Below are positions 4,854 to 25,439 of a DNA stretch of 49,309 bases, in pieces; within the stretch, counting starts at the first letter, position 1, and every line of letters starts with the position of its first letter. The position numbers and the translations under genes are program-made. Location of the stretch: the IMG/VR virus record IMGVR_UViG_3300009181_000112, positions 1 through 49,309 of that record. The stretch is one strand, 5' to 3'. This DNA is from a virus. The notes below the pieces were generated by a model. The model saw only the letters and a list, made by a program, of their open reading frames with translations. It did no database searches and was not told where the DNA came from.

Positions 4854-5542
4854 CAAATCGTGCGTTGATCTTGGGGTGTAGCCACGCAGCCGGCGCCGAG
4901 ATGTACAAAGATCCCAGAATCATCATTGAACATCCACAGTCATTTGGTTATCTTAACAGTTACCCAGTGCTGATCGCCAAACAACTAGGATATATCCCTT
5001 TAAACTATGCAATCGGCGGAGGCAGCAATGATGCCATGTTTAGAATATTTTGCGAGCAATTAGAATATTTAACATCAGATGATATTGTCATTGCTTGCTG
5101 GACTGGCATTGATAGAACTGAAATTTGGCACGAGCTTGATCAATGTTGGTTGCCGCTAAGTGTGGGACAACACAATTTTAATCCAATTAAATCTAGCACT
5201 TATGCACTGTCTGGGGAAAATTACGGAGGAGAAATTTCGTGCTTGGATGAATATAAACAGTATTGCCAGCAATGGGGCAAGTATCATATTAATTCAAAAT
5301 CAAGCAAACTAAACAAACTAAAAAATATAACAGCATTAAATGATCTAGCCCGGGCTCGATCAATTATAGTTATTAATGTTGATAGCTTTTATCCCATTGA
5401 CAATAATAGTAAATGGGCATTTGATGAAACATTTTGTGGCTGGGCCGATCGTAATAATTGCCACCGAACAGACTGGGGGCACTATTTTTTAGATACCCAT
5501 CAACGATTTGCCAATTTGGTTGTAGCTAACTACACACCTTAA
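4850..5542 (+). CDS. SGNH/GDSL-like hydrolase family protein
   Basis: I place the start at ATG 4850, not at an in-frame ATG at 4784, because 4850 forms the ATGA overlap with the upstream stop and directly precedes the conserved ILGCSHAAG strand. The 230-residue product has an SGNH-like order of motifs: GCSHAAG (candidate nucleophile S11), GGGSNDAMFR (Gly/Asn block), and a C-terminal TDWGHYF that could supply Asp and His. SGNH enzymes add or remove acyl esters, often on glycans. It is related to the protein encoded at 47514-48332: both have a strand followed by D-R-x-E-I (IDRTEI here, WDRVEI there). No signal peptide is visible. The 3' end overlaps the convergent carbamoyltransferase gene by 17 nt. 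Confidence 0.62.
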   Translation: MTNRALILGCSHAAGAEMYKDPRIIIEHPQSFGYLNSYPVLIAKQLGYIPLNYAIGGGSNDAMFRIFCEQLEYLTSDDIVIACWTGIDRTEIWHELDQCWLPLSVGQHNFNPIKSSTYALSGENYGGEISCLDEYKQYCQQWGKYHINSKSSKLNKLKNITALNDLARARSIIVINVDSFYPIDNNSKWAFDETFCGWADRNNCHRTDWGHYFLDTHQRFANLVVANYTP

Positions 5543-7010
5543 CACTGTACTGTTGTTCAAAGCGGTCTGCGTCAGCACGATCATTAACAACAGGCTCGCC
5601 CCGAATGTTAAGGCTAGTGTTAAGCAGCATGGGGCAACCTGTTAACATGTGCCAGTCTTCAAGCAACTGTCTAATACCGGATCCGTCTGCCGGCACAGTT
5701 TGCACCCGTGCAGTGTTGTCCACATGGCAAATGGCCGGGAACAGCGCCGGATGTCGACATGGGGCAACAATCTGCATGTAGTGACTAGACTGCCAGTTGT
5801 GCGGCATATCAAAGTGTGTACCGGCGAACTCGGCTAACACAACAGGAGCAAACGGACGGAACTGTTGCCTGCGCTTAATCAAGTTGACACGGTCCCGGAT
5901 GTCTGGACCACGTGGGTCAGCTAGTAAGCTACGGTTGCCCAAGGCACGCGGCCCAAACTCGGCTCGGCCACTGGCTACTCCCACAATCTTGTTGGCCAGT
6001 AGTTCATCAATCACTGCTTGTACCGGGTAAGCGCCTGGGATCCGGTGCCCAAGGAACGCTGTTTTCCAACTCAGCCTACGTCCGTATGCCAATGCTGCTG
6101 CACCCAGGCTGCTGCCGGCATCACCTGGGTTGGGCATGATCCAGATGTGATCAAACACGTTACCCAGTTTACTGTTGGCAACACAGTTCAACGCTACCCC
6201 GCCCATGTACACTAAGTTTCTCTCTCCTGTGAGTGCACGGGCATGCCGCATGATGTTCAGGACCAAGGATTCAGTCAATGTCTGTGCTGCTGCTGCAATA
6301 TCTTCTTTGCACAGAAATGGCAGCTCATACGGATCTAATCCTATGTGTAGATTCTTTTTAAAGCGGGCAGTTTTAATATCATCAATGAAATGATCTCGCA
6401 TCCAAGCTGCACCCAGGTCAGACCCATATGCAGCCATGCCCATGGTGATGTATTCTTCTTCCATGGGCTTCAAGTCCACGGCCCGAGTAATGGCCGAATA
6501 GAAAAGACCAATACTGTGCGGATAACCTTGTCGCCATAACAATTGATACTGTGCGCAGCCATCTTCTGCGGAATAACCTGCACGGTAAATGCTTATAGTG
6601 TCAAGCTCACCTATTGCATCAATTACCACAACGGCCGCAGTTTCAAATGGACTGGTCTGGAAACCTGCAGCAGCATGACTCAAATGGTGGCCGGCACAGG
6701 TAACACCGGCGGACTCTGGATACCAGTGGCCCATGTGTTGCTTTAACGCAGTTCGCAAACGCCAGGGTCCATACCGGTGCTGCCCGCTGCGCCACTGTTG
6801 TATGTTATGCATCCAAGGGCGCTCGTAGTACGCTACAGTAGACCAGTCCCATTGAGCAGCATCCTGTAACAGGTCAGTATGCAGGCTGTTATCGTTTTTC
6901 TTTTTACTGTATCGCTCGCTATGCCCAGCAAACATGATCTCGCCGTCGCTGCGTACCACAGCAGCAGCAGCGTCGTGATAGCCAGCACTAACACCGAGAA
7001 TGTGTTTCAT
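5526..7010 (-). CDS. NodU/TobZ-family carbamoyltransferase
   Basis: This 494-residue enzyme should transfer a carbamoyl group from carbamoyl phosphate, through carbamoyl-adenylate, to a hydroxyl group, commonly on a sugar. It begins with ILGVSAGYHDAAAA (H12), then HHLSHAAAGF (residues 108-117), a DAIGE metal-binding segment at 131-135, GGVALNC at 270-276 and GDAGSSLGAA near 296, all typical of the Kae1-like domain. The C-terminal domain follows with FGPRALGNRS near 352, RPFAPV and NTSLNIRGEP. It is complete, though shorter than many family members. The start ATG overlaps the stop of the 33-residue peptide gene as ATGA. It is the last gene of the long minus-strand operon and ends tail to tail with the plus-strand operon. 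Confidence 0.9.
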   Translation of the reverse strand: MKHILGVSAGYHDAAAAVVRSDGEIMFAGHSERYSKKKNDNSLHTDLLQDAAQWDWSTVAYYERPWMHNIQQWRSGQHRYGPWRLRTALKQHMGHWYPESAGVTCAGHHLSHAAAGFQTSPFETAAVVVIDAIGELDTISIYRAGYSAEDGCAQYQLLWRQGYPHSIGLFYSAITRAVDLKPMEEEYITMGMAAYGSDLGAAWMRDHFIDDIKTARFKKNLHIGLDPYELPFLCKEDIAAAAQTLTESLVLNIMRHARALTGERNLVYMGGVALNCVANSKLGNVFDHIWIMPNPGDAGSSLGAAALAYGRRLSWKTAFLGHRIPGAYPVQAVIDELLANKIVGVASGRAEFGPRALGNRSLLADPRGPDIRDRVNLIKRRQQFRPFAPVVLAEFAGTHFDMPHNWQSSHYMQIVAPCRHPALFPAICHVDNTARVQTVPADGSGIRQLLEDWHMLTGCPMLLNTSLNIRGEPVVNDRADADRFEQQYSVKVCS

Positions 7011-7108
7011 TTATAAATGAACGGGTCCCGCTTGCGCAGCTCTTTGAGTTTTTTACGGTAACGAATTTCTAATCTGATCTTGGCAATTAAATTCCGAATC
7101 CAGTTCAT
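7007..7108 (-). CDS. 33-residue basic peptide, possible carbamoyltransferase partner
   Basis: A short ORF of 33 codons plus stop fits exactly between its neighbours: its ATG (7108) overlaps the upstream stop as ATGA, and its TGA (7007) overlaps the carbamoyltransferase ATG as ATGA. The peptide starts MNWIRNLIAKI, has a middle packed with Lys, Arg and Glu that should form a charged amphipathic helix, and ends DPFIYK. From memory, the small DUF5989 proteins found beside carbamoyltransferase genes also end in a PFIY-type motif, so a docking or assembly role is a fair guess. The double coupling argues strongly that it is translated. A RiPP precursor for the nearby radical SAM enzymes is possible but less likely, because it lacks Cys and a Gly-rich core. 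Confidence 0.72.
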   Translation of the reverse strand: MNWIRNLIAKIRLEIRYRKKLKELRKRDPFIYK

Positions 7109-8199
7109 GTACGATATCCTTGTTGAATAATTTGTATCTGTCGTTGACTATAATTACTATCACTCCAGCAGTAATCATAAACTGCGTGTTGGTCGCTAGT
7201 TTTAATACTCCAAACATCCAGATACTTTATTAATTTATCCCATACAAGTTGGTAGTCAACAGAACCAAATGTTCGAGCTAGATCAACTTGTGCTACCCTG
7301 GGATGTCCAATTGTTAAACCGGGATCCTCTGGATCAAATTGATTGTCCCTGAGCCATTGTCTAAAGCTGTCTAAACGTTGTTTCTGCCAGATAAATTCAC
7401 TTGGGTCTCGCGCCCACTCAATATCAAAATCACCAGCTGCTTCAGATTGCGGGCGCATTGCTGTCGTCACCAAGTGTTCAATTCCCACGCCCTCATCATT
7501 GAACACTTCCCAGTGACTCTTGCCAATGGCCTTGTTGATGCCCACAGTAACACTGCCCAATGGGCGATTTAACTGCTCAATACCAAATAAAGAATAATCA
7601 TCAACCTCAAGTTGAAATCTCGGTGCATGCAGCCAACACATTAATTGACTTCGTCGTGACCACTCGGGCGCTTCTAATTGTTTACGATAACTCAGTGCCC
7701 AGCTTTCAAACTCATGACATAGCAAATTAAGTTGTCTAATATGCCAGCGCACTGCTGGGGTAGCTTGATTAAAATATGTGCTCATGCGGCCACTGACTCC
7801 TTGAAGATCTTCAAAGTATCGATGTAGCCAATTTAGTCGACTGTGTATAATATTACGTCCCATTGGATGGTCAGGGTCTGCCTCAAGATCATCACTGATA
7901 GTATTGTCCATTGAGAAATGATCATTGATGGTATATCCCAGGTTAGCCAGGTTGATAGCAGCAATTGATTTGTTTACTTGATCTAGAATATATACACCGT
8001 TGCGTTGATGCTCAACAAATCCAAAAAAACAATAATTCTTTTCAAGATGATAGTTATTTTGCAAAAGTAAATTTAACGAAGTTAACCATTTTCTCGACAA
8101 GGAGCTGTCGTGCACATCAATGTATATCGAAAAAAGACTATTGTCGTTACGATTTCTCAGTTTAATTTCAATCTGATCTAATACTGTTCCACCACTCAT
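7105..8199 (-). CDS. Conserved unknown protein (364 aa) in the radical SAM operon
   Basis: I do not recognise a family. The protein is soluble-looking, with no signal peptide, membrane segment or Cys cluster. Features that may define the family are HPMGRNIIHSRLNWLHRYFEDLQG near residue 110 (basic and aromatic), CHEFESWALSYRK near 180, and NDEGVGIEHLV followed by an acidic GDFDIEWARDP near 260. The ATG at 8199 lies inside the end of the upstream radical SAM gene (32 nt overlap), and the stop is coupled as ATGA to the 33-residue ORF. Its place between the radical SAM enzymes and the carbamoyltransferase suggests it supplies, holds or modifies the shared substrate; that is context only. Confidence 0.6.
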   Translation of the reverse strand: MSGGTVLDQIEIKLRNRNDNSLFSIYIDVHDSSLSRKWLTSLNLLLQNNYHLEKNYCFFGFVEHQRNGVYILDQVNKSIAAINLANLGYTINDHFSMDNTISDDLEADPDHPMGRNIIHSRLNWLHRYFEDLQGVSGRMSTYFNQATPAVRWHIRQLNLLCHEFESWALSYRKQLEAPEWSRRSQLMCWLHAPRFQLEVDDYSLFGIEQLNRPLGSVTVGINKAIGKSHWEVFNDEGVGIEHLVTTAMRPQSEAAGDFDIEWARDPSEFIWQKQRLDSFRQWLRDNQFDPEDPGLTIGHPRVAQVDLARTFGSVDYQLVWDKLIKYLDVWSIKTSDQHAVYDYCWSDSNYSQRQIQIIQQGYRT

Positions 8200-9475
8200 A
8201 TATTTCTTTGTCCTGTTGTAGTATATCTAGCATTGTGTAGGTGTCGTTGCGAATTTCTTCAAGCTTTAGAATTCTACGCTTGCCTTTGATCAGGCCTGCT
8301 TGCCACGTGTCAGGCCATTGTTGTTCAAACGTGGGGCGGTTCTTTAACTGTAGCAGCACATCACGCAGGGCACCCTCGGGTAGCTGTGCTGCCAGCAGGT
8401 CCACTCGCTGGTCCAGAAGTTCCCTGGGCAATGCCAGTGGACTCAGTACTATGTCTGGACTGAAGCTGAACACTACCTTGGCCAGCACTCCTACCCCATA
8501 CTCCTGTGCCAGTCGCTGTATGTTCTCTACTTCAAACAGGCCCGGCAGTGTTAGTGTAAAGTCTATACGCATTTGCCTTGGATGACGTTGCTGTTCTACA
8601 CCACGTGCAAAGTTATCCCGCCACTGAGAATACTTTAGCCCTGTACGGATGTACTCCCCTGTGGCTCCGGTACCATCCAGGCTAGCACAGATTTGCCAAT
8701 CGCGTATGTTATCAAGTATATCTCGATAAAGATTATTGCCTCTGTAATCTACCCTGCTGAGGTTGGTGTTGTATCTAGCGTAAACACCGGGTCCATCTCC
8801 TAGTTCAATAATTCTGCGCATGTAGCGCCAGTGCTGCTCGTACATCAAGGGCTCGCCACCGACCCAGTATATTTCCTCTACCCGGTGCTGCTCAACTGCT
8901 TGTGAGAACTCAGACTCTACCTGCTGGTCTTGGAACTGTGTAATCTCTTTACGTACAGCAGGCAGCATCCAGTTGTTCCGGGCATTGCCCCAGTCAATCA
9001 TGTTGTGTTGTTGCTGCTCTGACTCCCACTGGCTGCTTAACATGTCACCGCACATGCGACATTTGAAGTTGCACAGGTTACTGAAACGGTAGTCCCAACT
9101 TACAGGTTGCATTGTGGTGTAACCAGCGGCATCTGTACTGCTGGCCACCTCATCGTATTTGTGCTTGAACAAGTGCCAAAAGTAACTGCGGTACACATCT
9201 GTATTCAGCAGCTGATCATTACAGACTTCGCACTCGGGCAAGATCTCCCCGGCTAGCATTCTACGCCGTACACCGCGCATGTGCTCTCCATTCCAGTGCT
9301 GCTCCAAGGTGATGGGAATATAGCGCCCGGTTCCTGCTGCTGTGTCAATGTACTGTTGGAAGTTCTGCGCAGGCTCCCGGCTAGCACAGCACATGCGACG
9401 TTCAGTTTGCGGGCTTAGATAAGTGTGCGTCCAGGGCGCCAGGCACAAGGTGTCAGGTTTATTGATGTGGGCCAT
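8168..9475 (-). CDS. Twitch-type radical SAM enzyme A1
   Basis: The 435-residue protein has the radical SAM CxxxCxxC motif as CNFKCRMC (C135, C139, C142), which should bind the [4Fe-4S] cluster that cleaves S-adenosylmethionine, followed by GGEP at 206-209, the SAM-binding segment. The N-terminal 90 residues hold a second Cys set typical of proteins with an N-terminal twitch (half-SPASM) domain: C11 in CLAPW, paired C29-C30, and C82-x2-C85. This probably binds an auxiliary cluster. Substrate unknown; phage members of this group have no assigned reaction that I know of. The gene overlaps its upstream neighbour by 17 nt. With the next two proteins it forms a sub-family with a paired-Cys N-terminus. 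Confidence 0.85.
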   Translation of the reverse strand: MAHINKPDTLCLAPWTHTYLSPQTERRMCCASREPAQNFQQYIDTAAGTGRYIPITLEQHWNGEHMRGVRRRMLAGEILPECEVCNDQLLNTDVYRSYFWHLFKHKYDEVASSTDAAGYTTMQPVSWDYRFSNLCNFKCRMCGDMLSSQWESEQQQHNMIDWGNARNNWMLPAVRKEITQFQDQQVESEFSQAVEQHRVEEIYWVGGEPLMYEQHWRYMRRIIELGDGPGVYARYNTNLSRVDYRGNNLYRDILDNIRDWQICASLDGTGATGEYIRTGLKYSQWRDNFARGVEQQRHPRQMRIDFTLTLPGLFEVENIQRLAQEYGVGVLAKVVFSFSPDIVLSPLALPRELLDQRVDLLAAQLPEGALRDVLLQLKNRPTFEQQWPDTWQAGLIKGKRRILKLEEIRNDTYTMLDILQQDKEIYEWWNSIRSD

Positions 9476-10676
9476 AGTAGCCTATAGCTGTTGCTAGTTC
9501 TGGGTGGTTGGTACGCAGGTCCTGTTTGCGCTTCCAGTCTAGGTCCTCGACTTTCATGCGCAACACGTCACCATCTAGGCTTACGCCGCGCTGCATAAAC
9601 TCAATAATGTTGTCGAACTCTAGCCTGTTACGATCGGATACTTGTGCTGTTTGTAGTCGCTGGGCAATAGTGTCCTTGGCTGCTTGAGGCAAGGTCGAGA
9701 TACTAAAGTAGTAGGCTTCGTGCATCATGTTCCAGTATACAAAATCAAATGCCTGTTGGTCAATCCAGTTGGCCACCGCTTCAAGGTACGCTACATTAAA
9801 CACATTAACTGTGGTGCATACTTGCAGCTGAATATTAGTGTAACTGCTGCGGAGTTCCCGGAAACGTTGTATGTTTGCCTGCACCTCGTCCCAGACAGCA
9901 TTGGTGCGTTGGTATTCAAAACGTGCTCCCAGATCATCAATACTAAGTGCAATCTCCACAGTCTTGAAATGTCGCCAAATCGCCGGGCCTCTTTCTGGGA
10001 AGTTGGTTCCATTTGTGTTGTAATGTATCTCAACTTGGTGGGCAATTCCCAGATCCACTATGCCTTGCAACATGTCAAAATGCTGCTGGATCATGAATGG
10101 CTCTCCGCCTGTAAATTCAATATAACGTATTTGATCTAGTACACGGTCAATCTCGCCCCAGAACTGCTCATTCTCCTGTGGCCAGGCGCCGGCGCGCAGC
10201 ATCTGATAGTGAAAGCTGATTTTCTTTTCTGTTGGGCCCAAGTATTGAAGTTCCTCGACAGCAAAAGTACTCGAGCTCCAAGAGCCACAAATGCGGCATT
10301 TGAGATTGCAGATGTTGCCCAGTTTAAGATCTAGAAACACCAAGGGCCGTGCAGCCGCAGTCCACTCAGCATCCGGTATCATGTGCTTGAGACGATTTAG
10401 CGTGTGCATACGCTTGCTGGTACGACCCGAGCGTTCCTCATTCCAACACTTGCGGCACGTTGCAGGCTGTTTTTCATCTAAAAAGTCCTGCCGCAGTCGT
10501 TGCATGTATTGGCTGGACTGTACAACAGAGAGATCTGCGGTAGCAAGATCAAACTTTGCGCCCGAATCATCTACAATCTCTTCCTCTGCTAGGCAGCAAG
10601 GACGTACAGTACCGATAGGACTAGCTTCTAAGCTGACCCAAGGCAGGACGCAAAACTTATCGTGTGGTATTTTCAT
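9459..10676 (-). CDS. Twitch-type radical SAM enzyme A2
   Basis: This 405-residue paralogue has the cluster motif CNLKCRIC (C123, C127, C130), GGEP at 190-193, and an N-terminal auxiliary-cluster set of C9 in CVLPW, C27-C28, and C74-x2-C77. The segment after the last Cys pair (NEERSGRTSKR) is the usual link in this group. The C-terminus is more charged than in A1. The ATG at 10676 is coupled to the upstream gene as ATGA, and the 3' end overlaps A1 by 17 nt. As three related enzymes are made from adjacent coupled cistrons, successive or combined action on one substrate is a reasonable inference. No duplication is recent: only motifs are shared. Confidence 0.85.
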   Translation of the reverse strand: MKIPHDKFCVLPWVSLEASPIGTVRPCCLAEEEIVDDSGAKFDLATADLSVVQSSQYMQRLRQDFLDEKQPATCRKCWNEERSGRTSKRMHTLNRLKHMIPDAEWTAAARPLVFLDLKLGNICNLKCRICGSWSSSTFAVEELQYLGPTEKKISFHYQMLRAGAWPQENEQFWGEIDRVLDQIRYIEFTGGEPFMIQQHFDMLQGIVDLGIAHQVEIHYNTNGTNFPERGPAIWRHFKTVEIALSIDDLGARFEYQRTNAVWDEVQANIQRFRELRSSYTNIQLQVCTTVNVFNVAYLEAVANWIDQQAFDFVYWNMMHEAYYFSISTLPQAAKDTIAQRLQTAQVSDRNRLEFDNIIEFMQRGVSLDGDVLRMKVEDLDWKRKQDLRTNHPELATAIGYYGPHQ

Positions 10677-11953
10677 TGTAGTGCTTCTAACTCAGGCATC
10701 ACAGCAAGCATGCTTTCATTTCGGATTCCATCTAATTGGTTTGTCTTTTTCCAGAACTTAGGCAGCAGGCGACTGTTGTCTGTGGCCATCATAAAGTTAA
10801 TAGCACTTTCGAACCCCACAGTGGCGCGGTTGAGAGGATCCTGCGGCCGCAGCCATTCAATGTGATCTTGGAAACGACGCTTTAATCTTTCTTTAAAAGC
10901 AGCAGGTGCAATATCGATTCGATAATACTCGGGATCTTGCAATATGTTTACGTTAAGATCCTGTGCACGAATCAATCCCTGCTCAACCCACTCTCTATGG
11001 AACAAGGGCAAGTGCCAAGCATTCATTATGCTTAGTGTGGGACTAATGTAAAAGTCTACCTTGGGGCAAATCTCTTGCATTAGTCTACGGTTCTCCTCTA
11101 CCTGTGCCCACAGCGTGCCTTTACGAATGTATTCGGCGCGTGGGCCCATTGCATCCAAGCTTGCACCCACAGCCACACTGTCAAACTTGCGCCAGTAATC
11201 AAACACAAGTCTATTCTTTAACCGCACTTCGGTAAAGTTGGTGTTGTAGATCAAGCGAACATCAAAACGTCCTCGACGTTCTAGTTCTTCAAGAATCTTG
11301 TAATGCTCGTCCATGAGCAAGGGTTCGCCACCTGCAAAGTAAATCTGCTCTACGTAGTCTAAGTGCGGTTCTAACTGCGCCCACATATCAGTGGGCGTAC
11401 GGCCTGCGATGTTCAGTACTGTGTTATGCTTTTTCCAGTCACCTCCAGCTAGTTTAGCTTGATCCTGGTACCACTGGCTAGAGAAGATGTGCCCGCAACT
11501 ACGACAACGTAGGTTACACAGGTTGCTGAATCGAATGTCCCAGTAGGTCATTTCGAACTCATCAAACTGTCCGTTCTCTTGTGTGCGACTCACACGGTTA
11601 ATATGATGTCCGTGATGCTTGTTGGCACTGCGGCGGCCACTAAAGAAACCGGACTCTTCTTGTTCATAGCATCTGGTGCAGGCGGCACTGGCAGTTTCTG
11701 CCAGCATGTTCTGCCGCAGCTGACGTTGTGGGTCGCTGTTCCATATTTCCCGCAAGGCGGTTGTGCGACAGTTACCAATTGCTCCAACTCCCATTTCGGC
11801 ATGGCAACAGGGATATGCCTCCCCGGTGGGGTAAGCATGCAAGTGGATCCAGGGGTAGATGCAGAATGTCTTGCTGTCTTTGAGTAGAAATTCTTCACGC
11901 GGGGTTAGAGCAACATCTCGTATCAAGTCACTGCTGTTGTATTTGTATGCCAT
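10673..11953 (-). CDS. Twitch-type radical SAM enzyme A3
   Basis: The protein (426 residues) carries CNLRCRSC (C146, C150, C153), GGEP at 208-211, and N-terminal C31 in CIYPW, C49-C50 and C92-x2-C95, with an extra C62. It has about 25 residues ahead of the first Cys that A1 and A2 lack. FSNLCN and SSQW around the cluster motif are nearly the same as in A1, so A1 and A3 look closest. The gene overlaps the upstream radical SAM gene by 26 nt and is ATGA-coupled to A2. It should be a cytoplasmic iron-sulfur enzyme using S-adenosylmethionine; the reaction is unknown. Confidence 0.85.
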   Translation of the reverse strand: MAYKYNSSDLIRDVALTPREEFLLKDSKTFCIYPWIHLHAYPTGEAYPCCHAEMGVGAIGNCRTTALREIWNSDPQRQLRQNMLAETASAACTRCYEQEESGFFSGRRSANKHHGHHINRVSRTQENGQFDEFEMTYWDIRFSNLCNLRCRSCGHIFSSQWYQDQAKLAGGDWKKHNTVLNIAGRTPTDMWAQLEPHLDYVEQIYFAGGEPLLMDEHYKILEELERRGRFDVRLIYNTNFTEVRLKNRLVFDYWRKFDSVAVGASLDAMGPRAEYIRKGTLWAQVEENRRLMQEICPKVDFYISPTLSIMNAWHLPLFHREWVEQGLIRAQDLNVNILQDPEYYRIDIAPAAFKERLKRRFQDHIEWLRPQDPLNRATVGFESAINFMMATDNSRLLPKFWKKTNQLDGIRNESMLAVMPELEALQ

Positions 11954-13280
11954 CGTACCATTCTTTTAATCCAGGGAAGGTTGCCCCAAAATCTTTACCA
12001 CGACGTTGATCGTATTGTGTATAAAACTGCTTGAAGTCATTTAACAGTTTAGGGCTATCAAATGCCTCACTGTGCGGTGTTTCTACAACCTCTAAGTAAT
12101 CAATCAGTCGCTGTACTTGATTGATCTCGTGCTCGTGCAGCCAGGGGTTGTTGCGGTGACGATACATCCAGTCCTGTAGCCGAACACGGTAACGATGACG
12201 CAGCTCCCGGCTCAACACTAAAGGGCTTTGAAAACTAGGGAAGCGTAGTATGTTCACGCTAAAGTTCACTCGTCCGCGTCCGTATATCTGCTTGAACTCC
12301 ATCAGCTGGTGCAGCAGGTCGGTAAAGCTGTCTAGGCACAGTGCATTAATAGTGCACATGACATGCACAGCCTTGACAGTGTTGGAGTCTAACAAGGTAC
12401 ACACATTCTCGAACCACTCCTGATACGTCAAGCCATCACGAATGTATTCGGCCTGTGCGCCCACAGCTTCCATGCTGGTGTACAACTCCACGTGTGGCAA
12501 GGGGCGGATGGCGTCGATAAAATCTTTCACCTTGGCCAGCGGGAACCCTAGGTTGCTGTTGATTGCTAGCTTGGTAACAGACTTGCCCTGATTCTCTTTG
12601 AACCATTCAATCAGCTTCCAGGTGTAGCCAGACATCAAGGGCTCGCCCCCTGTGATCCTTAGTTCTTGCAGGGTGGCGTGCAGGTCTGTTTCCCACCACT
12701 TGAAGAACGCATCCACGTACGGATTGGCTTGATTAAACGTGTAAAGTTGAGCACCGTCGTGAGTATGAGTAAAGTGGTTACGCCCATCAGACACCAGCCC
12801 GGTATAAGGGCCATGCTTTTTAATGTCATTAACCCAGGTACTACTGAAAGCAGGGTTACAATAACTACAAGCGAACTGACAAGTTCGATCAAATGCAATC
12901 TCCAGAGTTTTGAGGTTAACGTCTTCGGTATATGGGATGGCAGTAGCAGCATGTAGATCCTTTATTGGATAGATTTTTGATTTGTACACACGGTCGCTGA
13001 CAGCATCACGGCCCATGTCTTCAATCTTCCAGCAGTACTCACACCCAGCCGGGCGTTCTCCTGCTAGCATTTTTTTGCGATCGTCTTTTTTCTGGGGTGT
13101 GTTGTGCAAGGCACTGGGACGAGCAGTGACTTCAGCCTGGCTTACTCCATGAGCCGGCGGATGGTGGCAACTGGTTGTTTGTCCGCTGCCTAACCATATG
13201 GTGGCATTGTACCACTTGGCTGCACAGAAACTGCTACTAATGGGGTCCAGGACCGTTTGGCGGAATTCAAAATCATTCAT
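11928..13280 (-). CDS. Twitch-type radical SAM enzyme B1 (CHH variant)
   Basis: This 450-residue enzyme has CQFACSYC (C134, C138, C141) and GGEP at 211-214. Its N-terminus differs from the A group: where A1-A3 have two adjacent Cys, B1 has SCHHPP (C38, H39, H40), and the other Cys are C19 in FCAAKW and C80-x2-C83 in CEYCW. Other features shared only with the protein encoded at 16112-17503 are SALHN near 57, AGERP near 73, and NPYVDAFFKWW near 186. One auxiliary-cluster ligand may therefore be His or absent. The start overlaps the upstream gene by 8 nt. Substrate unknown. Confidence 0.84.
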   Translation of the reverse strand: MNDFEFRQTVLDPISSSFCAAKWYNATIWLGSGQTTSCHHPPAHGVSQAEVTARPSALHNTPQKKDDRKKMLAGERPAGCEYCWKIEDMGRDAVSDRVYKSKIYPIKDLHAATAIPYTEDVNLKTLEIAFDRTCQFACSYCNPAFSSTWVNDIKKHGPYTGLVSDGRNHFTHTHDGAQLYTFNQANPYVDAFFKWWETDLHATLQELRITGGEPLMSGYTWKLIEWFKENQGKSVTKLAINSNLGFPLAKVKDFIDAIRPLPHVELYTSMEAVGAQAEYIRDGLTYQEWFENVCTLLDSNTVKAVHVMCTINALCLDSFTDLLHQLMEFKQIYGRGRVNFSVNILRFPSFQSPLVLSRELRHRYRVRLQDWMYRHRNNPWLHEHEINQVQRLIDYLEVVETPHSEAFDSPKLLNDFKQFYTQYDQRRGKDFGATFPGLKEWYDGIQIQQQ

Positions 13281-13923
13281 GTTGTATAAGTCGGCTATTT
13301 AAATCCCAGGATTTCCAAAGATGAGAAACTTGGTCTAGGTTAATTTGTATCCGGAGCTGCTGGGTTAGTTGTGTCAAGGCAGCTAGATAAGTGTCTAATT
13401 GTAGCATGTCTTCCCACCATATTTCAAGTCTATTAGGTATGGCTGTTAGTAATCGTTGATAGCTGGCAAGTTCCCAGGAATAAATTTGATCATGATGTTT
13501 TAGATCAGGTCTTTTTATTTTAGCAAATTGCACTATTTGATCCAGTGACTTGGCATGGTATCTTATAAAAATAACGTGTGGCCAGACATCAACTGACTCC
13601 CATAACACCTGCTTTCGAGTTTCATTTTCAAATGCACAAGGATGAAATTGATCTATTAGATCAAGATCGGACTGCTCGTAGTTTACAAAATCATTCTTGC
13701 CGGCGCGATACCAAATGTTCAGGGCAGTCTCGGTATGTGTCCAGTCTAGAACATTCCAATTATTGTACAGTTGCAATCGCTGTTCAGAACTAATTTGATA
13801 AGTTGGTTGGCTTTCTGCTAGAGATTCGGGTAAGATTGCTACTGTTTGTTCACTAAGACATAAAGACCTTGATAGTAAATTTCCTCCCGACCCTTGCACA
13901 TAAACAATTACAGCTTTTAGCAT
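13273..13923 (-). CDS. P-loop, sulfotransferase-like protein
   Basis: I start this gene at ATG 13923, one nucleotide after the stop of the upstream gene, not at the in-frame TTG at 13944 that would overlap it. The 216-residue product opens with a hydrophobic strand followed by YVQGSGGNLLSRSL (residues 8-21), which resembles the phosphate-binding strand-loop-helix of sulfotransferases that bind PAPS. A second strand, PHVIFIRY near 117, lies where the family's central sheet would continue. Sulfotransferases act on sugar hydroxyl or amino groups, which fits the neighbours. I cannot confirm a catalytic base, so this is a fold-level guess. Another P-loop kinase-type enzyme is possible. Confidence 0.5.
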   Translation of the reverse strand: MLKAVIVYVQGSGGNLLSRSLCLSEQTVAILPESLAESQPTYQISSEQRLQLYNNWNVLDWTHTETALNIWYRAGKNDFVNYEQSDLDLIDQFHPCAFENETRKQVLWESVDVWPHVIFIRYHAKSLDQIVQFAKIKRPDLKHHDQIYSWELASYQRLLTAIPNRLEIWWEDMLQLDTYLAALTQLTQQLRIQINLDQVSHLWKSWDLNSRLIQHE

Positions 13924-13924
13924 A

Positions 13925-15064
13925 TTAGCTAAACTTATTGACAAAATTTAAAAATTGAGTTGGGAATTCAGTTCGAACAGTCGGGGCCAAGCTGATCAAA
14001 TGCTGCTGATTGTATTTACACACATCATGTGCAGCTACCAAGAAACCAGCTGGCCCTGTTTCACATAGATCTTTAACAATGTCAATAATTCTGTCCATTC
14101 GGTCTTGATGATTGTCAATGCTGTCGAAACTTTCGTCAATCAAATTCCCAAATGTTTTAAAACCTAGCTTATGCATGTCCCGGTAGAAACCTGGGCCGGT
14201 GGCACAAATCCAAGGATGTGCCATTAGCAATGGTTTGGCAATTTTTTCTGTACGGAAACTGTAGGGATAATCAAATACTGTTTCTGTAACCACACTAAAA
14301 TAAGTGTCTTGATATACTTCGGGCACAAGATAAATCTCTCCCCAGAGATTATTAAATAGATCATGCTTGACAAATGGTTGTTCTGAATTAGGGAGAATCT
14401 TGTTGTCTCGAAATTGATCGACTTCATACTCGGTTGGTAGACACTGTATAGGAGTAGAAGTGGTCATTAGATTAACACCAGACTGGGACAACTTAAAATG
14501 TCGACTAGCTGTGGGTCTGCTGTCTAACATGGTCCATAAGCTTCGATCCAATAATCCTAGAGAATTAAATCGTTCCCAAAGATATTTTCGATGAGGTCTA
14601 CTTCGGCCGTTTAAAAAAAGAAAATCCCAAGGCTTGTTACTGGTTGTGTAAATTTTGTCACTGTGTTGAATAGCCGCAATATTCTCATCGTAATCTAGTA
14701 TTTTTTCTAAAAAATACTCATGCAGCATATAAGGGTAGCGGTGGTCCAACTCGCCACCGCTAATGAGTAGTATACGGTTTTCTAGTACAAGATCATGCAA
14801 GTCCAACAATCGAAGTTGGCTTACTAGAGGACTGGATCCCTCGGCTGAATTATTAAATATCATGATATAGTCTGGACTCTGAGCCATGGCTCGAAACTTG
14901 TCAAGATTCTCGGATACTTGTCTACGACCAACAATGTAAATAGATCCCTTGATGGGATCGTGCTGAGAAAAATCCCAAAATTCGGTAGATGCTAGATGTT
15001 TAAGACTAGTGTATACTTCGCTCAAGGTGTCAATGACAATATTATAAGAGTGTAAGGGTGTCAC
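13925..15064 (-). CDS. GT10-like glycosyltransferase candidate 3
   Basis: This 379-residue protein has the family block in its last third: E261 in VVTETVF, RTEKIAKP at 271-278, PW at 284-285, GFKTF at 301-305 and DESFD at 310-314. A second shared segment is FLNGRSRPHRK near residue 150 followed by a helix ending GLL, which matches NRKPREHR and GLL in the next-listed paralogue. The HR-containing region could contact the donor phosphate. The start is GTG at 15064, overlapping the upstream stop as GTGA. N-terminal 140 residues are unlike the other members by eye. No signal peptide. Confidence 0.68.
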   Translation of the reverse strand: MTPLHSYNIVIDTLSEVYTSLKHLASTEFWDFSQHDPIKGSIYIVGRRQVSENLDKFRAMAQSPDYIMIFNNSAEGSSPLVSQLRLLDLHDLVLENRILLISGGELDHRYPYMLHEYFLEKILDYDENIAAIQHSDKIYTTSNKPWDFLFLNGRSRPHRKYLWERFNSLGLLDRSLWTMLDSRPTASRHFKLSQSGVNLMTTSTPIQCLPTEYEVDQFRDNKILPNSEQPFVKHDLFNNLWGEIYLVPEVYQDTYFSVVTETVFDYPYSFRTEKIAKPLLMAHPWICATGPGFYRDMHKLGFKTFGNLIDESFDSIDNHQDRMDRIIDIVKDLCETGPAGFLVAAHDVCKYNQQHLISLAPTVRTEFPTQFLNFVNKFS

Positions 15065-16125
15065 GTGGGCGTTGCCTGGTTAAAAATATTATTATAAAGA
15101 TCTTGCTGTTCTTGTGCAAATTTTAAAAATCTAGTACGATTATGTAACAAGTCAGGCAGCATGTCCTGGTACATTTGTAAAAGTTGCCGACGAGATAATC
15201 CTGATAGGTATTGTATTGCTTGTATTAGTGAACTGTGTACTTCAAGTTCGTTGATCTGTTCTAGTTCTATGCCAGGAAAGTAATGAGTAAATGTTCGAAA
15301 CCCTTGACTCCTTAACCAGGCATATATTTTTGTTTGTCCGTTAAGCAGAAAAGGTCTTAGACCCAGAATAGGTTTCCATGTTTTTTCCGTGACAAACATG
15401 TTGTCCCATGGCAAGAATTCAGTTTCGCTTACCACGGTCAGGAAATGATTCTTCCAGATCATCATGTTGCCCAGGCTGTGTATATCATGCGGTATACCAA
15501 ACTCCATGCTCATGCCCCAGTTACCTTCCTGAGCATAGTCATCTGGTTCTTCTCCCAGTAGTAACTCTCCAGGATGCGTGGCCGAGCCAGTGTAGATATT
15601 GTTACTTTTTCCAAGCGTCACTACTCCTTGCTGCAATAGCCCGGCGTCTACTAGACGATTAACAAAGTTAATACGGTGTTCTCTTGGCTTACGATTGTAG
15701 TTGACATATATCCACTCAACTGTGTCTAGCTGCAACTCTTTCAGGCTATAGTACTTGAAATATCCCGGCAATAATGTGGCAATAAATGTGAATTGGTACT
15801 GTCCATCAAAGTTGCCAAGATAATATGTTTCTTTCGGAGAAATAGAGTCAATTAACTCGTTGATCTGTCCAGGTGACATCATGACAGGATCAACTGATGC
15901 TAACAGGAATAGACGCTCAACTGATTTGAGTTGTTTTGCAACTTGATACAAGTTGTTACTAAATTGCGGCCCGAACCAGGTGGTATTAATTAACAGATTC
16001 TGGCTGTTGGGCCAACGATGATTTATTTGTCGAGTGATGCAATCGATTAGCAAATTCTCATCGGTATGCCACTGACTGCTTTCTATAAAAGTTGTGCCAA
16101 TTACCGTGACATTATTGATTAGCAT
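15061..16125 (-). CDS. GT10-like glycosyltransferase candidate 4
   Basis: The 354-residue protein carries E234 in VVSETEF, VTEKTWKPI at 245-253, PF at 258-259 and LRSQGFRTF at 271-279. VTEK followed by an aromatic residue is the form closest to the VTEKLW of animal GT10 fucosyltransferases. YNRKPREHR near 143 and AGLL at 161-164 pair with the same region of the neighbouring paralogue. The DESYD that follows GFRTF in other members is not conserved here. ATG at 16125 overlaps the upstream radical SAM gene by 14 nt. Two GT10-like genes lie side by side between two radical SAM genes. Confidence 0.68.
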   Translation of the reverse strand: MLINNVTVIGTTFIESSQWHTDENLLIDCITRQINHRWPNSQNLLINTTWFGPQFSNNLYQVAKQLKSVERLFLLASVDPVMMSPGQINELIDSISPKETYYLGNFDGQYQFTFIATLLPGYFKYYSLKELQLDTVEWIYVNYNRKPREHRINFVNRLVDAGLLQQGVVTLGKSNNIYTGSATHPGELLLGEEPDDYAQEGNWGMSMEFGIPHDIHSLGNMMIWKNHFLTVVSETEFLPWDNMFVTEKTWKPILGLRPFLLNGQTKIYAWLRSQGFRTFTHYFPGIELEQINELEVHSSLIQAIQYLSGLSRRQLLQMYQDMLPDLLHNRTRFLKFAQEQQDLYNNIFNQATPT

Positions 16126-17503
16126 AATATCGGCAATCCTCCCACCAAGATTTCATTTCAGGAAATGTTGTTAAAAAATCAGTCTGCCGTCGCTGATCAT
16201 GCTCGGAGAAGAATCTGTAAAAATCTGCGCGGTGACGATTTAGCACAAGAGTGTCCAGGTCCTGCCCGCGTGACATCCAATCAATATCACGATCTAATCT
16301 TTGCACTTCATAGTCTTTAAACCCATGGAACCGAATATCCTCAGTTTCGGGAGTTTGTAGCATCCAGTCTCTTAGTTTCTGTAATACAGCAATATAGCTG
16401 CTGGGTAGAATTTGTAAACTTTGCCAGGCAGGCTGCTGCAACACCGGCATATCAAACCATACCCGTTGATAGGTACTGCTGTGTTTTTTCCTTAATTCTA
16501 GAATACGCCGCATCAACTGGTGTAAGCTGCCTACACTGAGATTGTTCATGGTAATAATAAATGTCAAGCTGTTGCGCTCGGGTAATTCGGTCAAGAAGCG
16601 TTCGACTCGGCTCCAGACCAGCTCAAAATCTAATCCATGTCGTATATACTCAGCTGGCTTGCCCCAAGCATCCAGGCTCACATACTGCATAAAGTGTTCA
16701 ACATTGTTTCCGGAACACAGCTTTTTTACTGACTCTAGATATCTCTCAAATAATCGTTCGTCGACACTGAAATTAGAAGTCACGTTAAGATGCAATTTTT
16801 GACTGGGATTGGCTAGCACATAGTCAAACACACGGTATGTGTTTTTGTCCATTAACGGTTCGCCGCCAGTCATTCGGAAATGTTCTAAGTGAGGGTATAA
16901 CTTAGGCCACCACTTCCAAAATGCATCAACATACGGATTTTCTTCTCTAACTGGAATAATACGGCGATTGCCTGTAAAGTGGTCCGGAGAGTTATGCGGC
17001 ACTTGGGTAGGGTAAGCACCGTGACGGGCAACTTCGTCTGCCCAAGAACTGCTAAACTGCGGACTACAATAGCTGCACTTTAGATTGCAAGAGTGGTTAA
17101 AGTTGACTTCAACATAACTGGGGATAACATCATCTTCATCGCCGGTACTGTTTTTTATCTGATCAAAGTCTACTGCGGCCCAGGGCTCACCGGACCGGTA
17201 GTGACGATCGCTTAAATTTCCAAGATCCTCCATGTTCCAACAGTATTGACATTCCTTGGGACGTTTACCTTCAAGCATGTCTCGACGTTGTTGTTTTTTA
17301 TACGCAGTATTGTGCAATGCACCAGGATTATTTGTGATTTCGTCTACTGGTATACGATGCAGTGGTGGGTGATAACAACTGTTGTTTAATCCAGTAGGCA
17401 GGTGCAAGCTAACCTGCTTCCATTTGGCCAGACACAAGGCAGGTCCCAACTGCTCGCGCATTTGTTCTGCAGACAGCATAAATTTTGATTTATTTTCAAT
17501 CAT
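16112..17503 (-). CDS. Twitch-type radical SAM enzyme B2 (CYH variant)
   Basis: The 463-residue enzyme has CNLKCSYC (C139, C143, C146) and GGEP at 213-216. Its N-terminal set is C24 in LCLAKW, C43 in SCYHPP and C85-x2-C88 in CQYCW, so it lacks the paired Cys of A1-A3 just as B1 does. ALHNT near 62, EGKRP near 78 and NPYVDAFWKWW near 189 confirm that B1 and B2 form one sub-family, although the two genes are separated by three others. ATG at 17503 overlaps the upstream B12-type radical SAM gene by 8 nt. The reaction is unknown. Confidence 0.85.
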   Translation of the reverse strand: MIENKSKFMLSAEQMREQLGPALCLAKWKQVSLHLPTGLNNSCYHPPLHRIPVDEITNNPGALHNTAYKKQQRRDMLEGKRPKECQYCWNMEDLGNLSDRHYRSGEPWAAVDFDQIKNSTGDEDDVIPSYVEVNFNHSCNLKCSYCSPQFSSSWADEVARHGAYPTQVPHNSPDHFTGNRRIIPVREENPYVDAFWKWWPKLYPHLEHFRMTGGEPLMDKNTYRVFDYVLANPSQKLHLNVTSNFSVDERLFERYLESVKKLCSGNNVEHFMQYVSLDAWGKPAEYIRHGLDFELVWSRVERFLTELPERNSLTFIITMNNLSVGSLHQLMRRILELRKKHSSTYQRVWFDMPVLQQPAWQSLQILPSSYIAVLQKLRDWMLQTPETEDIRFHGFKDYEVQRLDRDIDWMSRGQDLDTLVLNRHRADFYRFFSEHDQRRQTDFLTTFPEMKSWWEDCRYYANQ

Positions 17504-19307
17504 TTAGAACTTCAATTGTATTTTTCAATAAGCCTTTTCTTCGATTCGCGTAGAAATCAAATTTATCGTCTAGATCAACAGAAGAATTAATAATGTATCT
17601 GCACTGGACATCTTGCCATGTCTTGATATCAAAATCTAGATTTAACCTGACTGGGTATTGTTGATTTTGATCTAGTATTCCAAATTCTTGTAAACTTATT
17701 ACACCAGGATCTACATCAGTCAACTCTGCCAACATCTGCTGTGACATTTTGTATACCAGTTGTCGATTCTGATATATGAATAACCCGCCCAGATGGTGTA
17801 TAGTATGTCCAGTTTGATTATGATTATCAAACTCTAACATTTTTCCAGTGGTTAAATAATGCTGTAAAACATGCTGTACTTGAGTAAAATATTCTTTGAA
17901 TGGTTCTGTGTTTTTTATTTTTTCAAATAAATTGTCATAAAACTTTCGATAAGAAATATTTTTTTTGTATCGAGCATACTTGGACAGGTATTGAGTATAC
18001 CCTGTAACATGAAAATTTATAATCATCCAGGCATACATAGATCCTTCGACAATATCTGTAGTAGACATTGTATTTGTTGAAGAAATCAACTCTATCTGTT
18101 CGTCAATGCCTTTGTAATCACTGGTGTTGTACGATGCAGTGTAATCACTAGCATTAATCGCTGATATCCCGTATTTTCTACGAGAGATATCTTGTGATAG
18201 TTCACTGTTTTCTAACAGTTGGGCAAACCACACATCAATCGATTTATGTTGCCCCAGTTCCAGGAGTTCGGCTAACCCTTGTTTCCAACTTTCCAATGTT
18301 TCTAGGGGCAATCCTAATATCACTTCTGTATAAGTGCTAACGTTGGTGTTTTCGCTAATTGCCATCATTTTAGCAATGTTGTTAACGTCAAGGTTTTCTC
18401 TGTTTACAGCAGACAGAGTGTCTGTATTCATGCTTTGCACGCTTACAGTTATTCCTCTACTGTACGGGCCTATGATTTTGGCAATTTCAAACACCACGTC
18501 AGTTGAGTTTTTAGCATAGTTGATATTGATCGAATCAAGACGACCACGGTCTGCAGCTGATCTAATCATGTGTGCTATTTCTAAATCACGCTGTTTAAAA
18601 ATGCCAAAGTTTGCATCACCCAACACCAAATAACTTACCGGACGTGTGACCATCCACTCTAGATCCTGGCGTATACGTTCTAGTTCAAATTTTTTAATTT
18701 TACTATACGTTACTCCGCCCCAGTCGCAGAATGTGCAGGCATACGGGCATCCTCGATTGGTTTCTATGGTCACACTCCAGATTGCGCCAGGGTTGTCTAA
18801 CATGATCTGATCAAATACACCGGTTGTATAAGGGCTAGGAATGTCAAGTTGCTGCAATCGTTGTTTTTGACTCAATAGGGGCGGCTCTTTGTTTGCCTGT
18901 ATAGCCAGTAACGACTCAACAAATTTTTCTTCTCCCTCACCTGCCACAATACTATCGATAAAATTATGTTTTAACCATTTCCCATTGGTGTTTGGGCCGC
19001 CAAACTGAATTATACAGTTGGGCCATTGTTTTTTTATCATCTCAGCTAACACCAAACAATACTGTGAATTCCAAGTATAAGCACTAAATCCACAGTATAC
19101 CGGATTCTCCATGCGAGATAATACAACTGCAGGATCTTCACGACGAAAAATTAATCCTGCCAGGTGAAAGTTATCTGTGATTTCTGTAAATTGGCTAGCA
19201 TAGCTCCATAGACATCCAACACTGTAGGGAATCCAATAATTGATTTCTTTCCTAAATTCAACCGCGTGTTGAGGTTGGAACAGATAGATATTATGTTTAG
19301 TAGACAT
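17496..19307 (-). CDS. B12-binding-type radical SAM enzyme
   Basis: This 603-residue protein has the layout of cobalamin-type radical SAM enzymes: an N-terminal Rossmann-like region with FGGPNTN near 102 and AGEGEEKFV near 122, then the core with RGCPYACTFC (C187, C191, C194), TYTEVILGLPLET in mid-protein and a C-terminal extension. I do not see the classic DxHxxG cobalamin ligand, so cobalamin could be bound base-off without a protein ligand, or not bound. Many such enzymes methylate unreactive carbon or phosphorus centres. It differs from the five twitch-type enzymes here in architecture. The gene is separated from its upstream neighbour by 2 nt. Confidence 0.82.
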   Translation of the reverse strand: MSTKHNIYLFQPQHAVEFRKEINYWIPYSVGCLWSYASQFTEITDNFHLAGLIFRREDPAVVLSRMENPVYCGFSAYTWNSQYCLVLAEMIKKQWPNCIIQFGGPNTNGKWLKHNFIDSIVAGEGEEKFVESLLAIQANKEPPLLSQKQRLQQLDIPSPYTTGVFDQIMLDNPGAIWSVTIETNRGCPYACTFCDWGGVTYSKIKKFELERIRQDLEWMVTRPVSYLVLGDANFGIFKQRDLEIAHMIRSAADRGRLDSININYAKNSTDVVFEIAKIIGPYSRGITVSVQSMNTDTLSAVNRENLDVNNIAKMMAISENTNVSTYTEVILGLPLETLESWKQGLAELLELGQHKSIDVWFAQLLENSELSQDISRRKYGISAINASDYTASYNTSDYKGIDEQIELISSTNTMSTTDIVEGSMYAWMIINFHVTGYTQYLSKYARYKKNISYRKFYDNLFEKIKNTEPFKEYFTQVQHVLQHYLTTGKMLEFDNHNQTGHTIHHLGGLFIYQNRQLVYKMSQQMLAELTDVDPGVISLQEFGILDQNQQYPVRLNLDFDIKTWQDVQCRYIINSSVDLDDKFDFYANRRKGLLKNTIEVLND

Positions 19308-19309
19308 TG

Positions 19310-20257
19310 TTATTCGATTAGTGTAATTTCAGTTTTATACTGCTGTGTTTGCAGTAACTTGTAATTATGGTCTAGCGTGTACTGCATATCCAAATACATC
19401 GTTGTTAATTCTTTGATTGATTTTTTTGCTAACATGTCTATCAGTTCTAGTATCTTCACGAACCGATCTCGGCCATCGTACCCGTCGTAGTCTTCGTTCC
19501 AGAAATCTGCAAATGTTCTGAAGCCTATTTGGCGCAAATAAGCAAGATGATCACGGCTGGCAAAAATTATAAATGGTTTTTTTAACCACATGGGACGGCA
19601 TGTTTTTTCTGTAGGATAAAATGTTCTTCCGGCCACATGGGCCTCACTTACTATGTCTACAAAAATTTTTGAGTATGTCTCTATACCGTCGGCCTGGTTG
19701 TAATAATACTGCCACTGTTTTCTAATTCCGTCAAGGGTGCCGGGAAAATAACGCAACGGCATGTGACTCAGTAGATTTGATACATTTGCTAGATTATCAT
19801 TACCAAAAGTTGCTAATTTATCAAATTCAAATAATGTTATAGCATCAACATCTGTTTCATACGGAAAATGAACAATACTAGAATCTCGGTGGTGAGAAAA
19901 CAAATAACTAGCCATGCCCAATCTGTTTGCAGTCGGTCGATGATACATGCTTAAAAAAATATTTTCTTGTGTCCAGCAATGTAATGTTGTATCAATCAAG
20001 GGCGTCGTAGCAATCCAAGGATTATGCCAGCGATTTATTATCTTATAATGCGGATGAGATTCTAATAAGTTTTTAGTGTGAATTGTCACTGACTTGAAAT
20101 CAAACAAGTCCAGGATTTTAAAAACACCTAAACTTTTAAGACAAATAGCTTCTGGATTAATTTTAAACTCAATATCCTGGTGTTGATTTTTTGTTAAATA
20201 TTCGACAAATTCTAATAAGTTCCAAAATTTATCATTGGTTCCCGAAACAATAAACAT
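19310..20257 (-). CDS. GT10-like glycosyltransferase candidate 5
   Basis: At 315 residues this is the shortest of the five paralogues. The signature is E205 in DIVSEAH, PTEKTCRPM at 215-223, PF at 228-229, LRQIGFRTF at 241-249 and NEDYDGYDG just after. YHRPTANR near 105 may correspond to the HR segment of the other members. The gene stops 2 nt before the B12-type radical SAM gene and begins immediately after the stop of the epimerase gene, with no spacer. Its position directly after the GDP-sugar epimerase is the best contextual hint that this family uses a GDP-L-sugar donor; that is inference. Confidence 0.68.
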   Translation of the reverse strand: MFIVSGTNDKFWNLLEFVEYLTKNQHQDIEFKINPEAICLKSLGVFKILDLFDFKSVTIHTKNLLESHPHYKIINRWHNPWIATTPLIDTTLHCWTQENIFLSMYHRPTANRLGMASYLFSHHRDSSIVHFPYETDVDAITLFEFDKLATFGNDNLANVSNLLSHMPLRYFPGTLDGIRKQWQYYYNQADGIETYSKIFVDIVSEAHVAGRTFYPTEKTCRPMWLKKPFIIFASRDHLAYLRQIGFRTFADFWNEDYDGYDGRDRFVKILELIDMLAKKSIKELTTMYLDMQYTLDHNYKLLQTQQYKTEITLIE

Positions 20258-22167: not shown

Positions 22168-22510
22168 ATTTCTTTGTCCATTTGATATGCGGTGCCTGGA
22201 CCGATACTACAACACTAACATCACCGGGCGCACAGGGTGTGCCGTTCTCAGCATCAGGGATTAATTTAGCAATTGCTGGGGTTTTAGACTCTACTGTTAC
22301 TAATTGTTGATCCACGACCCGTACCTGGTAAGATTGTGTTGCATAGGCAGCATGATCGATCTCAATATAGTTACCTGGCAAATCCTCCATGCTGTACACA
22401 ATTGGCATGCCTGACTCGTCATAATACAGTCTATAAAACACCGGGGCGGGATCAGCACGATCCCAGGCGGCCCAGGCGGCCCAGAAGTTGTCTGTGGTTT
22501 CGTTACTCAT
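22157..22510 (-). CDS. Small conserved unknown protein (117 aa)
   Basis: No function can be assigned. The product begins with a Trp/Ala stretch (FWAAWAAW near residue 9) and contains FYRLYYDESG near 25, SMEDLPGNYIEID near 39 and RVVDQQLVTVE near 64, which suggests a small beta-rich fold. There is no signal peptide or membrane segment. Similar small proteins occur beside glycosyltransferase genes in marine phages as far as I recall, but I cannot name a family. The ATG is ATGA-coupled to the upstream GT8-like gene, and the stop lies 11 nt inside the GT-A gene. Confidence 0.65.
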   Translation of the reverse strand: MSNETTDNFWAAWAAWDRADPAPVFYRLYYDESGMPIVYSMEDLPGNYIEIDHAAYATQSYQVRVVDQQLVTVESKTPAIAKLIPDAENGTPCAPGDVSVVVSVQAPHIKWTKKYES

Positions 22511-25430: not shown

Positions 25431-25439
25431 GTTTGATCC

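Follow-up and report, generated by a model that had tools for sequence, protein, structure and literature searches.

Five N-terminal-twitch radical SAM genes kept as a set in phages, with same-type relatives in Bdellovibrionota

Phages rarely retain whole multi-enzyme pathways, so why should one carry five mutually divergent radical S-adenosylmethionine (SAM) proteins in a single locus? The question is raised by the uncultivated virus record IMGVR_UViG_3300009181_000112, whose 49,309 bases were analysed as a whole and are hereafter called the window. An earlier note, made from the letters of this DNA alone, had pointed out five twitch-type paralogues in it and proposed that they catalyse distinct, non-redundant reactions, perhaps successive steps on one substrate. 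Judged from their sequences, these genes, designated here R1 to R5, represent five ancient single-copy types that are nearly always found together and are shared as a set with Bdellovibrionota.

Identity, co-occurrence and order of R1 to R5

All five genes lie on the minus strand and encode N-terminal-twitch radical SAM proteins of 435 (R1, 8168-9475), 405 (R2, 9459-10676), 426 (R3, 10673-11953), 450 (R4, 11928-13280), and 463 amino acids (R5, 16112-17503). Their matches to the NCBIfam model NF033640 (N_Twi_rSAM), at 281.9, 325.1, 396.7, 310.1, and 318.9 bits, respectively, all exceed its curated cut-off of 170 bits and cover model positions of about 1-398, i.e., nearly the full model; in addition, the Pfam SPASM domain was found above cut-off at the N-terminus of R2 and R3 (in R3 at residues 31-96). 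Four N-terminal Cys residues, the CxxxCxxC motif, and GGEP are invariant across R1-R5, and the proteins are predicted to bind two 4Fe-4S clusters and to cleave SAM. The open reading frames lie exactly where the earlier note had placed them, and its description of five proteins with CxxxCxxC, GGEP, and a Cys-rich N-terminal domain was borne out, as was their strong mutual divergence, R1 being 24, 26, 18, and 22% identical to R2, R3, R4, and R5, respectively. Of the 145-157 orthologues collected per gene, every one (100%) has the three radical SAM Cys residues and GGEP, and 99-100% have the four N-terminal Cys residues, a near-total motif retention that excludes chance.

The phylogenetic check proposed in the earlier note was carried out, and each gene falls in its own single-copy phage clade, with the clades co-occurring in a fixed order. 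Each of R1-R5 was used as a seed against IMG/VR, where 465 viral stretches matched R4, and loci were taken from the best 80 hits per seed; the sample therefore leans towards relatives of this phage. Together with the window, the 393 loci formed 176 contig clusters after overlapping or near-identical DNA had been merged. In a tree of 800 representative sequences, R1-R5 fall in five clades of 145-157 sequences, with more than one copy per clade in only 1 to 7 of about 150 contig clusters. When full-flank loci were counted, with a single locus per cluster, the complete set of five was present in 43 of 43 R4-seeded, 39 of 39 R3-seeded, 37 of 38 R2-seeded, 33 of 34 R5-seeded, and 31 of 35 R1-seeded loci. 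About 107 of 110 distinct full-flank loci share the order R5-R4-R3-R2-R1, barring occasional extra family members; exactly five members and no others are present in 77 of about 110 distinct loci, and in some phages extra copies are inserted inside the core. Three marine-type contigs (L438, L440, and L441) carry the same five types with R1 and R2 swapped in order. These contigs are binned as unrelated bacteria and look like misbinned phage contigs.

As an operon-internal control, other genes of the module were counted in the 148 contig clusters that contain all five types. A B12-binding radical SAM gene was present in 2 clusters, the gene at 13273-13944 in 5, EKT2 in 19, and an epimerase gene in 30 (these genes are described below). 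The five-gene set persists while genes between and beside it turn over.

With their motifs intact, R1-R5 were also shown to bear the mark of purifying selection: the ratio of nonsynonymous to synonymous substitution rates (dN/dS) to the closest relative, IMGVR_UViG_3300042484_002041 (L007, L089, L230, L247, and L326), is 0.061 for R1, 0.063 for R2, and 0.098 for R4, and was not measurable for R3 and R5, whose synonymous sites are saturated. R1, R2, and R4 are 92-96% identical to this relative and R3 and R5 only 73%, suggesting that single genes have been exchanged at fixed positions. Recent tandem duplication with decayed motifs, the outcome that the earlier note had set against its own proposal, was tested and is rejected by the motif retention, the low dN/dS, and the approximately unbiased (AU) test reported below. 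Distinct, non-redundant roles are well supported by the single-copy co-occurring clades, the full motif retention, and the type-specific residues that follow.

The number five holds for this locus, but it is not the full number of copies in such phages, since fourteen related records of 168-364 kb (G001-G014, e.g., L401-L437) contain 11-21 NF033640 matches each, and the majority of these genes are dispersed away from the five-gene core. Matches to A-type Fe-S carriers were found in 12 of these 14 records, usually two in each, consistent with a large Fe-S load, while no flavodoxin that might serve as a phage-encoded reductant was detected in the 14 records. Against isolated phages, tblastn returned distant matches only, namely in Vibrio phages K566 and K567, and in one marine single-cell virus.

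Bacterial relatives and the age of the five types

A scan of bacterial and archaeal genomes placed the relatives mainly in Bdellovibrionota (Bacteriovoracaceae, Oligoflexia, and Halobacteriovorax) and Bacteroidota, those of the Bdellovibrionota often being arrayed in groups of three to ten genes. An array with all five types is located on L444, a chromosomal contig of a Bacteriovoracaceae metagenome-assembled genome (UBA6144), where obg and rsfS lie immediately upstream. Another genome of this class contains R3, R1, and an R2-like gene at one locus and the R5 and R4 types at another, as judged by eye, the latter locus also including obg-like and L21-like genes. In the class searched, R1-type genes were uncommon, with 8 of 129 genomes containing them. 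Contig L508, which was assigned by binning to Rickettsiales MED657, has thirteen N_Twi radical SAM genes at 3943-20600, and eleven of these follow one another in tandem on a single strand.

In a careful maximum-likelihood tree of 61 phage and bacterial sequences, with which a quick tree of a larger sequence set agrees, each of the five phage clades is monophyletic. Ultrafast bootstrap (UFBoot) and Shimodaira-Hasegawa-like approximate likelihood-ratio test (SH-aLRT) supports are 100/99 for R1, 100/93 for R2, 100/99 for R3, 100/100 for R4, and 100/100 for R5. Every phage clade has same-type bacterial sequence as its nearest outgroup: L444:7401 with L528:8957 for R1 (99/96), L444:11208 for R2 (100/99), genes of L444, L443, L450, and L447 for R3 (100/98), two L444 genes for R4 (94/81, the weakest of the five), and L444:12859, followed by L450, for R5 (98/83). 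A single clade for all phage sequences was rejected by the AU test (p = 2.9e-80), and forcing phage R4 together with R5 was likewise rejected (p = 6.9e-41). R1-R5 possess 81, 39, 30, 64, and 70 type-specific invariant residues, of which the same-type L444 genes retain 49, 24, 23, 44-50, and 47, respectively (60-78%), compared with 0-6 in genes of other types.

The same-type bacterial outgroups, the rejected single phage clade, and the type-specific residues together argue that the five types predate the phage lineage, having separated from one another earlier than the phage copies did from those of Bdellovibrionota. The earlier description of R1-R5 as ancient paralogues therefore stands as far as five old, separate types are concerned, but these were evidently not born in phages. 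Within each type the phage clades are nested among bacterial sequences, suggesting that the set was transferred into phages. Where the lineages of the different types join, long branches meet, which makes the branching order between types uncertain.

Gene neighbourhood and the possible substrate

T4-like tail genes occupy the right part of the window and include baseplate wedge proteins (42105-45584 and 45632-46006), the closest isolate counterparts of which, at 32-35% identity, come from large phages including Phosso, Atu_ph07, SCTP-2, CBB, and GAP32. A 4,825-amino acid virion protein (27625-42102) matches phrog_10938. The minus-strand module that contains R1-R5 comes after the tail genes, and directly upstream of it are two virion/tail-fibre-type proteins (24435-26810, minus strand) that are conserved beside the module; 25440-26810 has weak PHROG structural and tail-fibre matches, while 24435-25430 has no PHROG match and is labelled as tail-fibre-type from its position and its Ser/Thr/Gly-rich sequence. 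Every gene junction from 7105 to 19307 overlaps, by 4 to 32 bases, and these genes are therefore probably translationally coupled.

The neighbours described next are all on the minus strand unless stated otherwise, and their counts refer to the 148 clusters introduced above. A NodU/CmcH-type carbamoyltransferase (5526-7010; PF16861 163 bits, PF02543 127 bits, phrog_1601) is a core gene present in 124 clusters. EKT1 (13925-15064), present in 116, was modelled with AlphaFold2 at a mean predicted local distance difference test (pLDDT) score of 90.1. In VIA-align the model resembles T4 beta-glucosyltransferase (Z 12.9) and an alpha1,3-fucosyltransferase (Z 12.3) with root-mean-square deviations of 4.5-4.7 over about 275 residues, and it aligns with many GT-B enzymes at Z 12.9-10 over about 280 residues, with two Rossmann-like domains. 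The structure alignment with the GT10 alpha1,3-fucosyltransferase has 14% identity, there is no Pfam or PDB sequence match, and Foldseek alone gave no match with E below 0.001, so that the assignment of EKT1 as a putative GT-B glycosyltransferase is kept to the fold level. No EKT1 homologue was found in nine Bdellovibrionota genomes.

EKT1 belongs to a second expanded family in the window (1590-2693, 2677-3840, 13925-15064, 15061-16125, and 19310-20257), which has no Pfam or PHROG family and for which a GT-B fold is probable, one member having been modelled. Its accessory paralogue EKT2 (15061-16125) shares the conserved EKT segment, and the further member EKT3 (19310-20257) is present in 47 clusters. 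Among the other accessory genes, 13273-13944 has no family match, 20258-21250 encodes a nucleotide-sugar epimerase/GDP-fucose synthase-like protein (NF047922 1.4e-30, phrog_540), and 17496-19307 encodes a KedN5-like B12-binding radical SAM protein (NF033712 175 bits, below the cut-off of 700), a sixth radical SAM protein of the same coupled operon that is absent from the earlier note. Three further core genes are probable GT-A-like transferases, as read from conserved acidic motifs: 21244-22167, the most conserved flanking gene (143 clusters), in which a DGDN motif is invariant; 22507-23277 (128), with a GT-A-like sequence pattern; and 23261-24058 (118), a distant relative of the latter with an LDADY motif. 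In 74 clusters an amidinotransferase-like protein (3831-4853 in the window; phrog_25854, a family annotated as of unknown function) is encoded close to the module, but on the other strand.

Beside R1 lies a core gene for a protein of 364 amino acids (7105-8199; 136 clusters), for which an AlphaFold2 model with pLDDT 86.6 gave only partial cyclophilin-like matches in VIA-align (Z of at most 8.8 over about 140 residues) and nothing below E 0.1 in Foldseek; in view of these weak fold matches, no function is claimed for it. Homologues occur in three of the nine Bdellovibrionota genomes, where they stand alone, and a linkage of this gene with N_Twi genes in bacteria was therefore rejected.

In Bdellovibrionota, two loci (L538 and a Halobacteriovorax locus, L535, continued in L540) carry R4/R5-type genes within about 12 kb of a GT4 glycosyltransferase, and the same span also has an ABC-2 exporter with its ATPase, and a DegT aminotransferase or epimerase. 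Next to solitary relatives, the family met most often is Glycos_transf_2, which accounts for 6 of 71 neighbours.

On the strength of the GT-B fold of EKT1, the carbamoyltransferase, and the epimerase in the phage, and of the glycan-type R4/R5 loci in bacteria, we surmise that R1-R5 form a fixed five-enzyme set that acts as a unit and performs a multi-step edit of a surface glycan, a proposal that has, in our estimate, an even chance of being right. Phages would have acquired the set in one piece from a source resembling Bdellovibrionota. In each enzyme, the radical SAM cluster would generate a 5'-deoxyadenosyl radical, and the second, N-terminal 4Fe-4S cluster would serve electron transfer or substrate binding. 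Jointly, the enzymes would change the sugars of one glycan by several radical reactions (epimerisation, dehydration, dehydrogenation, or the like); this glycan would be assembled by the GT-B and GT-A-like glycosyltransferases of the module, carbamoylated by the NodU-type enzyme, and displayed on phage tail fibres encoded by the neighbouring genes or on the infected cell surface. In this scheme we infer the direction of transfer, the number of chemical steps, the substrate, and the location on virion or host, and the idea of successive steps on one substrate, raised in the earlier note, likewise belongs to it as a conjecture.

Several observations weigh against a glycan substrate or temper the case for it. 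Our literature search found no NF033640 member with an assigned function, and none is known to us. The three GT-A-like calls derive from motifs, with no Pfam match, and PDB sequence-profile searches with EKT1, the 364-amino acid protein, and 21244-22167 yielded nothing meaningful. Because the loci were selected for their resemblance to the window, close relatives are favoured in the exact percentages. The L444 array with all five types adjoins the housekeeping genes obg and rsfS rather than a glycan locus. Moreover, PqqD-like proteins are located 0-140 bases from R4/R5-type genes in three bacterial loci (5424-5723 of L530, 17477-17779 of L535, and 5152-5430 of L538), in or close to glycan-type loci, and point to a peptide substrate in those bacteria.

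The last observation leads to the main rival, in which R1-R5 modify a protein or peptide, be it the Ser/Thr/Gly-rich tail fibre next door or a ribosomal peptide, as SPASM/twitch peptide maturases do. The SPASM/twitch domain is indeed typical of such maturases, and the phage module directly follows tail-fibre-type genes. A small Peptidase_S74 protein of the tail-fibre chaperone type (16936-17367 of L535) also stands beside R5-type and PqqD-like genes in Halobacteriovorax, although this was the only adjacent case, and S74 was rejected as a general neighbour. A PqqD-guided peptide pathway in phages was rejected, since no PqqD was found at E 0.01 in any of 14 virus records (the window and 13 large phage records). 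The core has no obvious candidate for a precursor peptide gene, small frames not having been surveyed exhaustively, and its neighbours are glycosyltransferase- and carbamoyltransferase-like. We thus regard modification of a protein or peptide as rather unlikely. It would be less probable again that the set redirects host metabolism through a pathway for small molecules, nucleotides, or tRNA that has nothing to do with surfaces: radical SAM enzymes act in many such pathways, and the nearby amidinotransferase-like and carbamoyltransferase genes recall aminoglycoside-type chemistry, but the location in the tail gene region and the conserved linkage to GT-B and GT-A-like genes speak for another role, and no nucleotide or cofactor enzymes were recognised in the core. 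Finally, the copies might all catalyse one and the same reaction, each on a slightly different target, and be kept as an arms-race repertoire, as the abundance of family members in large records, the extra copies within some cores, the variable neighbours, and the single-gene exchange seen in the closest relative would allow. Such a repertoire should show gain and loss among the five, whereas nearly always one of each is present in a constant order, and the 30-81 invariant residues that mark each type are for the most part kept in a bacterium; we consider it very unlikely.

Significance and relation to known systems

If the multi-step glycan edit proposed above is carried further, large aquatic phages may have captured a complete five-step Bdellovibrionota radical pathway for a new surface structure, which now decorates the virion or the infected cell; we offer this only tentatively and rate it as unlikely. 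Such a capture would possibly reflect phages infecting or competing with these predatory bacteria, and, if real, it would to our knowledge be the largest fixed radical SAM set on a phage. In any case, five oxygen-sensitive, costly enzymes have been retained, with their motifs intact, in some 150 sampled phage contig clusters amid neighbour turnover. An uncharacterised enzyme family thereby gains a defined, ordered, and testable reaction set, large phages and predatory bacteria acquire a phylogenetic link, and the substrate question becomes answerable, since a bacterium that has the five types can be studied in their presence and in their absence.

NF033640 describes the architecture of R1-R5, an N-terminal twitch followed by a radical SAM core, and all five pass its cut-off over nearly the full model; however, it scores the five types without telling them apart, and it carries neither an assigned function nor any association with a fixed set. 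The Bacteriovoracaceae UBA6144 array is the nearest counterpart, with all five types sister to the phage clades, in tandem and mostly on the same strand, but it differs in order (R4-R1-R2'-R3-R2-R5-R4), in its extra copies, in its position beside obg/rsfS, and in the lack of adjoining EKT or carbamoyltransferase genes. The radical SAM genes of the 255 kb isolates K566 and K567 likewise form an adjacent group, yet they are only about 23-24% identical and fall outside the five clades. Our literature search turned up no report of the fixed five-type set. That a phage may carry many radical SAM genes was already known from the T4-like ocean virus TARA_ERS488813_N000010, for which 12 radical SAM genes were reported in 2017 alongside genes for Fe-S assembly (PMC5332604). 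As far as the parts of that report available to us go, it resembles the present phages, by description, in its many radical SAM genes, Fe-S carriers, and large T4-like genome, while it is marine and is described there without paralogue types, an operon, or a pathway (PMC5332604). In pelagimyophages, glycosyltransferases and radical SAM cassettes lie beside tail fibres in a host recognition cluster that was called hypervariable (PMC7029224); in contrast to that variable cluster, the five genes described here constitute a fixed core inside a variable region.

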